A DNA stretch of 64,000 bases, taken from NCBI RefSeq assembly GCF_030273315.1, contig NZ_CP127174.1, forward strand, positions 310,001-374,000. The letters run 5' to 3'. How positions within the stretch are numbered: the stretch's first letter is position 1; each line of letters begins with the position of its first letter. The notes under the pieces are model-generated. The model did no database searches, was not told the DNA's origin, and worked only from the letters and a program-made list of their open reading frames with translations. Positions 10,863 through 34,650 of this stretch are shown here, one piece after another. The DNA is from Natrialbaceae archaeon AArc-T1-2 (GTDB lineage Archaea; Halobacteriota; Halobacteria; Halobacteriales; Natrialbaceae). The position numbers and the translations under genes are program-made.

Positions 10863-10946
10863 GGTGGGGTGGCAGAGCGGCCCAACGCGCCTGCCTTGAG
10901 AGCAGGTGGCTGTCAAGCCTCATGGGTTCAAATCCCATCCCCACCG
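10863..10946 (+). tRNA. tRNA-Ser (anticodon UGA)
   Basis: 84 bases without encoded CCA. The acceptor stem pairs GGTGGGG (10863-10869) with CCCCACC (10939-10945), followed by discriminator G. The anticodon stem CCTGC/GCAGG encloses loop CTTGAGA with anticodon TGA at 10897-10899. A long variable arm (about 10907-10921) is as expected for class II serine tRNA. The T-arm is ATGGG-TTCAAAT-CCCAT. No intron is seen. Confidence 0.95.
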
Positions 10947-10947
10947 T

Positions 10948-10980
10948 ATTTTGCCGCGAGCAACGTCGCGAGCGGCAAAT
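10948..10980 (+). terminator. Hairpin just after tRNA-Ser
   Basis: TTTGCCGC (10950-10957) can pair with GCGGCAAA (10972-10979), with a 14-base loop, starting two bases after the tRNA. It may be a terminator or processing signal. The same design follows tRNA-Glu at 34534-34563. Confidence 0.5.
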
Positions 10981-11069
10981 CGTAACGGATGGATTTGAAC
11001 GAGAGGCGTCACAGCGCGCGAACGCAGTGAGCGAGCGCCGTCACGTGGTTCGGATCCCATCCCAGCCGT
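10981..11069 (+). repeat. tRNA-tail module with degenerate second copy of the tRNA-Ser 3' end
   Basis: Carries TGGATTTGAA (10990-10999, an inverted T-loop sequence), a GTCAC, a GCG-rich palindromic stretch with GAGCGAGCGC, and ends in GTGGTTC..ATCCCATCCCAGCCG (11045-11068), a mutated copy of the tRNA-Ser 3' end. The order and several blocks match the module after tRNA-Glu at 34564-34650. It resembles a relic of insertion at a tRNA attachment site. Confidence 0.55.
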
Positions 11070-25665: not shown

Positions 25666-25759
25666 TCGTCCGTCTCGCAGTCGACGCCACCACCTCTCCG
25701 GCCTGGCGACCGGTGAGTACGCCGACGTCGTTTCGCGAAGATTGATTCAGTGTAGTGAG

Positions 25760-29841: not shown

Positions 29842-31425
29842 ATGGTGCCTGCTCCGTCGCTCGATTCGTCCTCCCTCTCGAGAGCTCGGACCTACCTCGA
29901 GCGCCGCGTCGCAATCGATACGCGGACGCTTGCTGTGTTTCGCGTGTTCGTCGGCCTGTTAGTCATCGCGGACCTCCTGCTTCGGGCCCGTAATTTCCCG
30001 TTTTACTACACGAACGACGGCGTCGTTCCGCGATGGCTCGCGATGGAACAGACCGCAGACTACGCGTTCTCATTCTATTATCTGACGACAGATCCGTATC
30101 TCATCGCCGGACTGTTCGTCCTCCAGGGGCTGATCGCCGTCCAGCTCATCGTCGGCTACAAGACCCGGATCGCCTCGATACTGACGTTTCTGTTCGTCGT
30201 CTCGCTCGATCACCACAACCCGCTGGTGTTGAGCTACGCCGACACGCTGTTTCGGCTGCTTCTGTTCTGGGCGATGTTCCTCCCGCTCGGGGAGCGGTGG
30301 TCGATCGACGCCGTCCACCGCGGTCGGGAACCGCGCGCGTCCATTACGAGCTTCGCGTCCGCGCTCATCCTCGGCCAGATGGTCTACATGTACGTCATGA
30401 ACGGCTATCACAAGTCCAAGGACGAGTTATGGACCAGCGGGGACGCCACGCCGCTTATCATGGGGCTCGACAATACGACCTTCCTGCTCGGGGAGTTCAT
30501 GCGGAACTTCCCGACGCTGCTTCAGCTCGGGGGACTGACCTGGTACTACATGCTCCTGTTTGCCTGGCTTCTCATCCTCCTGCCGGGCCGAGCCCGGATG
30601 GCGTTCGCCGGGATGTTCCTCGTCGCACACGCCTCGTTCGCGGTGACCGTCCGCATCGGCGCGTTCCCCTACGTCGCCATCGCCGGCGTGTTGTTGTTCC
30701 TACAGGCCCAGTTCTGGGACGACACGGCCCGGCTCGCACGACGGCTCGGAATCGACCTCGACCGACTCCGGGCGCAACTCACCGACCTCGAGGATCTCGC
30801 CGCTCGCGTTCCGGACTACCGGTTCGATTCCGACCGACAGCGCCAGGTCAAAGACGGCCTCTACACGTTCACGATCGTCGTCGTCGTCGTGACGATCGCG
30901 ATGGTCGCCGGCATCTCGGCCCTGCAGCTGGGCGGCGTCGTCGACGACGACATCGGCCACGACCAGGAGGTCGAACGCGTCGCCTCGAGTCTGTCGATCG
31001 ACCAACCCGACTGGAGCGTGTTCGCGCCGACGCCGCGGACGACTGACCGCTACTACGTCTTCCCGGCCGAGACCGCAGACGGCGAGTACGTCGACGTCTA
31101 CAACGAGCGGCCACTGACCTACGATCGACCGGGAGACGAACTCCAGAAGCAGTACGATACGTACCGCGAACGCTTCTTCATGGGCGACATTCGCCGTGCG
31201 AACGACGGCGATCCGGAACCAGAGCTCCTCGCGGAACACCTGTGTACCACCTGGGAAGAAGAACACGGCGACGAACTCGTCCGGATCAACATGTACCTGA
31301 TTTCCGAGGACGTGACGATGGAGACGATCGACGACCACGAAGACCGTGATCGATCGATCCGGCTGCTGTCCAAACACGGCTGTGGCGACAACGAACCGGA
31401 GCGTATCGATCCGCCCGAAGACTGA
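29842..31425 (+). CDS. HTTM-domain membrane protein (vitamin K gamma-carboxylase-like)
   Basis: 527 residues, preceded by TATA-like AAATAAATATG near 29805. Roughly the first 300 residues form the HTTM domain with several membrane helices (RTLAVFRVFVGLLVIADLLL, FYYLTTDPYLIAGLFVLQGL). YVMNGYHKSKDELWTSGDAT near 181-200 retains the lysine that is catalytic in vitamin K-dependent carboxylase. The rest is a helix near 342-366 and an acidic domain likely outside. Whether it carboxylates anything is unknown. It is followed by a DCC thiol-oxidoreductase, a pairing often seen with HTTM proteins. Confidence 0.85.
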   Translation: MVPAPSLDSSSLSRARTYLERRVAIDTRTLAVFRVFVGLLVIADLLLRARNFPFYYTNDGVVPRWLAMEQTADYAFSFYYLTTDPYLIAGLFVLQGLIAVQLIVGYKTRIASILTFLFVVSLDHHNPLVLSYADTLFRLLLFWAMFLPLGERWSIDAVHRGREPRASITSFASALILGQMVYMYVMNGYHKSKDELWTSGDATPLIMGLDNTTFLLGEFMRNFPTLLQLGGLTWYYMLLFAWLLILLPGRARMAFAGMFLVAHASFAVTVRIGAFPYVAIAGVLLFLQAQFWDDTARLARRLGIDLDRLRAQLTDLEDLAARVPDYRFDSDRQRQVKDGLYTFTIVVVVVTIAMVAGISALQLGGVVDDDIGHDQEVERVASSLSIDQPDWSVFAPTPRTTDRYYVFPAETADGEYVDVYNERPLTYDRPGDELQKQYDTYRERFFMGDIRRANDGDPEPELLAEHLCTTWEEEHGDELVRINMYLISEDVTMETIDDHEDRDRSIRLLSKHGCGDNEPERIDPPED

Positions 31426-34457: not shown

Positions 34458-34532
34458 GCTCCGTTGGTGTAGTCCGGCCAATCATTTCGGCCTTTCGAGC
34501 CGATGACCTGGGTTCAAATCCCAGACGGAGCA
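34458..34532 (+). tRNA. tRNA-Glu (anticodon UUC)
   Basis: 75 bases. Acceptor GCTCCGT (34458-34464) pairs with ACGGAGC (34525-34531), with discriminator A. The anticodon stem TCGGC/GCCGA encloses CTTTCGA, anticodon TTC. T-arm CTGGG-TTCAAAT-CCCAG. No encoded CCA, no intron. Confidence 0.96.
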
Positions 34533-34533
34533 C

Positions 34534-34563
34534 TTTTCCGCGAACAAATTCGTGAGCGGAAAA
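34534..34563 (+). terminator. Hairpin just after tRNA-Glu
   Basis: TTTTCCGC (34534-34541) and GCGGAAAA (34556-34563) form an 8-bp stem with a 14-base loop. Same position and loop size as after tRNA-Ser. Confidence 0.5.
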
Positions 34564-34650
34564 TGCGACCCTGGATTTGAATCAGACCAGTCACGCGCAG
34601 CGTAGCGAGCACGTCTGGGCGTGGTTCAAATCCCAGACGGAGCACTTTTC
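34564..34650 (+). repeat. tRNA-tail module with a perfect copy of the tRNA-Glu 3' end
   Basis: Bases 34623-34650 repeat 34511-34538 exactly over 28 bp (T-loop to acceptor end plus CACTTTTC). Between the copies lie the hairpin, an inverted T-arm-like TGGATTTGAA (34572-34581), GTCAC and a GCGCAGCGTAGCGAGC stretch. No integrase or cargo gene is present. It looks like a tiny insertion at a tRNA attachment site. Confidence 0.7.

Follow-up and report, generated by a model that had tools for sequence, protein, structure and literature searches.

Short, gene-less units matched to their host tRNAs in the 3' flanks of haloarchaeal tRNA genes

Results

Related tails follow tRNA-Ser(UGA) and tRNA-Glu(UUC)

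The window, which is the whole 64-kb stretch of DNA from Natrialbaceae archaeon AArc-T1-2 that was analysed, contains a tRNA-Ser(UGA) gene and a tRNA-Glu(UUC) gene that are each followed by a short structured tail (Table 1). An earlier note on this DNA had described a series of blocks behind tRNA-Ser, and all of these blocks were found in the claimed order and located by coordinates. Hairpin 1 of the Ser tail is composed of the stem TTTGCCGC/GCGGCAAA and the 14-nt loop GAGCAACGTCGCGA, which features GA/GA mismatches and an inner GC/GC. The block TGGATTTGAAC occupies 10990-11000 and is followed, in order, by AGAGGCGTCAC, GTGAGCGAGC, and CGTGGTTC. The sequence TGGATTTGAA had been suspected of pairing with the second T-arm. 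This suspicion holds, as TGGATTTGAA is reverse-complementary to nt 54-65 of the host, which comprise the T-loop and the 3' strand of the T-stem, and the two covary. The score of the degenerate copy that ends the Ser tail was reached by 0 of 5000 mononucleotide shuffles of that tail, and among the tRNAs of the genome, the best score against the copy, 16/20, is shared by two, each of which is predicted as tRNA-Ser(UGA). The Glu tail (34533-34650) shows the same block order and ends in a 20/20 copy of the tRNA 3' end. No gene was found between the tRNA and the copy, and the unit is too short to encode an integrase or other genes. Elsewhere in the window, Rfam assigned 19 nt at 25705-25723 (CTGGCGACCGGTGAGTACG) to the HIV-1 splice donor family at gathering level, which, in haloarchaeal DNA, we regard as a chance match.

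Table 1. Positions of the two host tRNA genes and the parts of their downstream units in the window.
Feature	Position	Strand	Description	Basis
Host tRNA-Ser(UGA)	10863..10946	+		ARAGORN and Rfam RF00005, 52.3 bits
Ser unit, hairpin 1	10950..10979	+	8-bp stem, 14-nt loop	Sequence and folding
Ser unit, inverted T-arm GATGGATTTGAA	10988..10999	+	Reverse complement of host nt 54-65	Model R2 match, covariation
Ser unit, variable central hairpin	11000..11048	+	CGTGG at end	
Ser unit, degenerate direct copy TTCGGATCCCATCCCAGCCG	11049..11068	+	16/20 to host 3' end, nt 54-73	
Host tRNA-Glu(UUC)	34458..34532	+		ARAGORN and Rfam
Glu unit, hairpin 1	34534..34563	+		Sequence and folding
Glu unit, inverted T-arm	34570..34581	+		Within model R2 match 34570-34636
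Glu unit, central hairpin	34582..34624	+	CGTGG at end	
Glu unit, exact direct copy and trailer CTTTTC	34625..34650	+	20/20, exact 6 nt past tRNA	

The two tails belong to one family. A covariance model, R2, that was trained exclusively on 40 units from other genera, with the genus of AArc-T1-2 left out, recovers both the Glu tail (34570-34636, E = 4.8e-15) and the Ser tail (10988-11060, E = 1.1e-4) in the 64-kb window, which places the shared blocks above chance even though these E-values are rough because of a short calibration. The DNA similarity of the two tails in a direct BLAST comparison was not significant; when the Ser tail was searched against the genome, the Glu tail was absent among the matches listed, and the sole other strong match was the tail of tRNA-Lys(UUU) (E = 4e-10). 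A further R2 match at 30745-30834 (E = 0.01, both strands) falls in apparently coding sequence and is probably due to chance.

Across the family, a unit comprises hairpin 1, a linker, the inverted T-loop and T-stem of the host, a central hairpin that varies, and, in direct orientation, a repeat of the 3' end of the host. Units are approximately 70-170 bp long and hold two hairpins and no gene. Paired GA mismatches occur in hairpin 1, and its motif CGARC...GYGAG was found in 155 of 247 first hairpins, compared with 1.2 in shuffles. The copy and the inverted arm form a stem whose covariation is significant, with a score of 0.293 versus 0.151 when shuffled, and 0.325 versus 0.138 in another set; these shuffles do not keep relatedness, and slid registers scored 0.06-0.14. 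Between loci L113 and L108, the apex of the central hairpin apparently gains or loses sequence, while its base GGGAGG...CCGACCG is constant.

Units are widespread among Halobacteriales

We checked the 3' flanks of all 46 Rfam-detected tRNA genes of AArc-T1-2 for a downstream repeat of the last 20 nt. For 21 of the 46, the tRNA's own 3' end is repeated with at least 15/20 matches, and the remaining 25 reach at most 13/20. Nearly all of these 21 tails also feature hairpin 1 and the inverted arm, the exception being Arg(GCG) (L052, position 1241984 of contig C1 in G000), which bears a minimal unit of hairpin and copy that lacks the inverted arm. With a further unit behind tRNA-Pro(CGG), which Rfam missed, the genome has approximately 22 units. 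The earlier note had proposed two independent insertions of one element family, of which the single family stands; the Ser and Glu tails are not two isolated cases, given the number of units in this genome and their presence throughout haloarchaea.

Using a stricter filter, a second model, R1, matched 80 of the 83 sampled Halobacteriales genomes and 0 of approximately 309 other genomes sampled in the phylum, and the family appears to be confined to haloarchaea. Exact-pattern matches carry names that include Halorubrum, Haloarcula, Natrinema, Halococcus, and Haloferax larsenii. Of 92 matches in three other genera, 83 followed a tRNA at a distance of 35-203 nt and on its strand, with one to three matches per tRNA. 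Units are often arranged in tandem, and some arrays alternate unit types. In three haloarchaeal genomes, 31 of the 33 sampled tRNAs have no unit, which shows units to be dispensable; congeners of two of these genomes do have units. Rfam and a limited literature search yielded no description of haloarchaeal tRNA tail repeats. The descriptive claims on the units are strong.

Copy and inverted arm match the host tRNA

Comparison of approximately 320 distinct units with their hosts revealed per-position identities of 82-99% between a copy and its own host, as well as complementarity of the inverted arm to nt 54-65 of that host. In 83% of all units, the agreement between copy and host reaches 17/20 or better, compared with 2% for other isoacceptors, which bears out the earlier claim that the end copy is specific to each host. 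The copies follow the acceptor sequence of each tRNA, which rules out their origin from a common terminator. At the variable positions, copy and arm both agree much better with their own host than with other tRNAs; the arm complements nt 57 of its own host in 93% of cases and that of other tRNAs in 53%, and the corresponding values for nt 64 are 55% and 23%. Where a host has an unusual T-loop, for example TTCAATTC, the inverted arm carries its counterpart, GAATTGAA.

Host and unit also change together. In an orthologous Ser(UGA) unit with alignable flank, the tRNA, inverted arm, and copy have jointly switched between TTCGAA and TTCAAA (G018 versus G224), and T-loop, arm, and copy have likewise changed together at Leu(UAG) between G000 and G001. 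In units with a drifted copy, the inverted arm fits the tRNA in 68 cases and the copy in 17; the arm thus follows the tRNA and not the drifted copy, and stem compensation is therefore rare. At locus L110, the unit agrees with tRNA-Arg(CCU) in its left side and arm, but its copy resembles the end of tRNA-Val, and this unit is possibly the product of recombination between the arrays of two tRNAs.

Whole units are gained and lost

In comparison with G001, a sister species of the same genus, AArc-T1-2 has some tRNAs with a unit where the other genome has none, and vice versa, and units common to both genomes frequently differ in the central hairpin. At Leu(UAA), L233 has one unit more than L293, with the extra unit adjoining the tRNA, and at Leu(UAG), G021 has one unit more than G006. 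The 66-bp hairpin and copy behind Arg(GCG) in AArc-T1-2 are absent in G021, and the flank that follows the copy continues as the G021 flank does after the tRNA. Whole-unit differences between species fall at the T-loop-to-3'-end boundary, with only a few clean pairs representing gain or loss. An apparent gain in Natrinema (L265 versus L273) was rejected as a tandem tRNA gene.

The conservation of hairpin 1 and the linker follows the isoacceptor and not the genome. Between different isoacceptors, 1.6% have a similar hairpin 1 within the same genome versus 1.1% between genomes; units are therefore no more alike within than between genomes, which gives no sign of a recent transposition burst. Support for the earlier proposal of independent insertions is thus partial: gain or loss of whole units occurs at a few loci, but units of different tRNAs in the same genome show no raised similarity. 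The proposal that the Ser copy is the older one fits the decay of the Ser unit relative to the Glu unit (16/20 versus 20/20; 26 versus 65 bits). However, the same tRNA in G001 bears a different, intact unit, which suggests that turnover, and not simple age, may be involved.

Units and integrated elements

Elements that integrate into tRNA genes by means of a tyrosine recombinase target the tRNA 3' end and leave a copy at their far end and the tRNA whole (PMC8371274), and they use tRNAs that also host units here. The units, too, are flanked on either side by the 3' end of the tRNA in direct orientation; they differ from such elements in their small size, in the absence of genes and integrase, and in their two hairpins. 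We consider it very unlikely that the tails are scars of integrated proviruses or plasmids with integrases that target tRNA 3' ends. The T-loop-to-end duplication resembles an attachment site, and several orphan units are found immediately past genes that resemble tyrosine recombinases (identified by visual inspection of motifs), 5-20 kb from a tRNA, including those of tRNA-Pro(UGG) in AArc-T1-2 and of L104, L153, and L152. At four displaced loci, however, the left element ends, which adjoin the tRNA, are not hairpin-1-like, which suggests that elements push units aside and do not leave them. Furthermore, scars would not account for dozens of genera sharing a conserved unit of two hairpins whose inverted arm matches the host, and the complete unit pattern is missing from viral contigs save for one tRNA-Glu with a unit. 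Scans of the viral contigs with the type-1 core and the full core gave 0 matches, and a looser pattern returned mainly real tRNAs.

The single viral case is a metagenome contig in a viral database (L326, 13744-13909), in which tRNA-Glu is followed by a unit that is either virus-borne or part of the host flank of a provirus. In AArc-T1-2, tRNA-Pro(UGG) and its unit are approximately 10 kb apart, and G001 has a like unit beside that tRNA. The insertion of approximately 10 kb between tRNA-Pro(UGG) and the unit (G000, contig C1, approximately 1341100-1351600; L120, L038) has an integrase-like gene at its end and probably represents a mobile element that has integrated there. It seems that elements enter between a tRNA and its unit.

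DNA or RNA

The units may instead act as functional pre-tRNA 3' trailers, i.e., as a candidate structured RNA with a role in controlling termination, 3' processing, or decay, and with an inverted arm that could compete for the T-arm. We judge this possibility, the main rival to DNA cassettes, to be rather unlikely, yet several observations are in its favor. The covarying stem described above is one, as is the near-universal presence of units in the order. For hairpin 2, folding is more often stronger on the strand of the tRNA than on the other (287 versus 41, n = 331), and the GA/GA mismatches are conserved on the sense strand, with GA exceeding TC by 34:19 and 21:2, which suggests that the tRNA-sense strand carries a specific fold. 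In a joint fold of the Ser transcript, the inverted arm can pair with the T-arm of the tRNA. According to one paper, an earlier screen in Haloferax volcanii traced nearly all of its tRNA fragments to pre-tRNA 3' trailers (PMC3544259), which would accord with such a role.

Other observations argue against a trailer RNA. When stems are searched without gaps and with every type of mismatch treated the same, hairpin 1 has 24 GU and 23 AC mismatches and the central hairpin 60 and 46, whereas tRNA stems of the same genomes show GU:AC ratios of 56:16 (acceptor) and 93:0 (T-stem). The lack of the G-U excess seen in tRNA stems argues for evolution of the hairpins in the manner of inverted repeats in DNA. 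The ratio for the inverted arm, 172:110, is open to mutation-bias explanations, and its inner pairs give 52:43. The sense-strand folding bias of hairpin 1 vanishes with DNA parameters. Compensation within the stem is rare, as the drifted-copy units indicate, and half of the tRNAs and some species have no units. In joint folds of the AArc-T1-2 units, 61-65 pairs in, or stays within, the normal tRNA region in 17 of 21. Taken together, the missing G-U excess in stem mismatches and the existence of unit-less species favor DNA cassettes over trailer RNA.

A process that requires no function is replication template switching at tRNA genes, which would leave functionless copies and keep them alike. 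Template switching is expected to produce the order A, A-inverted, A with symmetric mismatches, but the order-wide motifs AGGGA...GACCG and CGARC...GYGAG, which lie outside the arms, are unexplained by copying alone, and we find this account highly improbable.

Discussion

The units share features with several known systems. In Escherichia coli, RtT repeats (Rfam RtT) are arranged in tandem behind a tRNA of the tyrT operon, each with a copy of the 3' end. The haloarchaeal units are also tandem and each carry a copy of the tRNA 3' end, whereas RtT is found at one tRNA in enteric bacteria, and we know of no host-matched inverted T-arm there. The Rfam RtT model had no match in the window (cmscan at the gathering score, which reported two tRNAs and one implausible hit only). 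MITEs and REP-like palindromic repeats are short non-coding hairpins that occur in many copies, as are the units, but the latter are restricted to positions behind tRNAs, share a single orientation, and have arms that match the host, and they do not form the bursts of near-identical copies seen for MITEs.

Integron cassettes are tandem units that end in an attC site with inverted-repeat arms, a variable apex, and the core GTTRRRY. The haloarchaeal units share the tandem arrangement, the inverted-repeat arms, the variable apex, and, at two loci, addition beside the fixed end. In contrast, they are gene-less, have no integrase nearby, and have the core GTTCRAAT, with C as its fourth base. An integron-like system, in which a host tyrosine recombinase would read the folded single strand of hairpin 2 and add units beside the tRNA, with the arms of hairpin 2 rebuilding the T-arm of the tRNA as an attachment site, is quite unlikely by our assessment.

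We favor the explanation, with a probability of about 0.5, that the Ser tail belongs, as a single unit, to a family of DNA cassettes that are specific to haloarchaea, lack genes, and are anchored at tRNA genes. The repeated segment begins at the T-loop and extends past the tRNA end, such that recombination between the tRNA and the copy could add or remove a unit while the tRNA stays intact. This exchange could proceed by homologous recombination or through a putative tyrosine recombinase that cuts at the T-loop, and it would keep units tied to one isoacceptor. The match between copy and arm may be maintained by gene conversion together with hairpin-templated correction, or by selection for the folded strand. 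Against this explanation, the near-universal retention of units in the order could be a sign of selection, the sense-strand folding bias of hairpin 2 would also follow from an RNA role, and similarity is no higher among the units of one genome.

If the units were trailer RNAs, they would add to RNA biology a new layer that is specific to individual tRNAs and that could plausibly be connected with the Haloferax trailer fragments. For the annotation of tRNA-integrated elements, a copy of a tRNA 3' end near the tRNA need not mark a provirus and may mislead. If cassettes recombine at the T-loop, this would explain how the 3' flanks of tRNA genes are gained and lost harmlessly and would offer a simple test bed for recombination at tRNA sites. 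Half of the tRNA genes across a whole archaeal order carry an extra structured unit that is matched to the tRNA.
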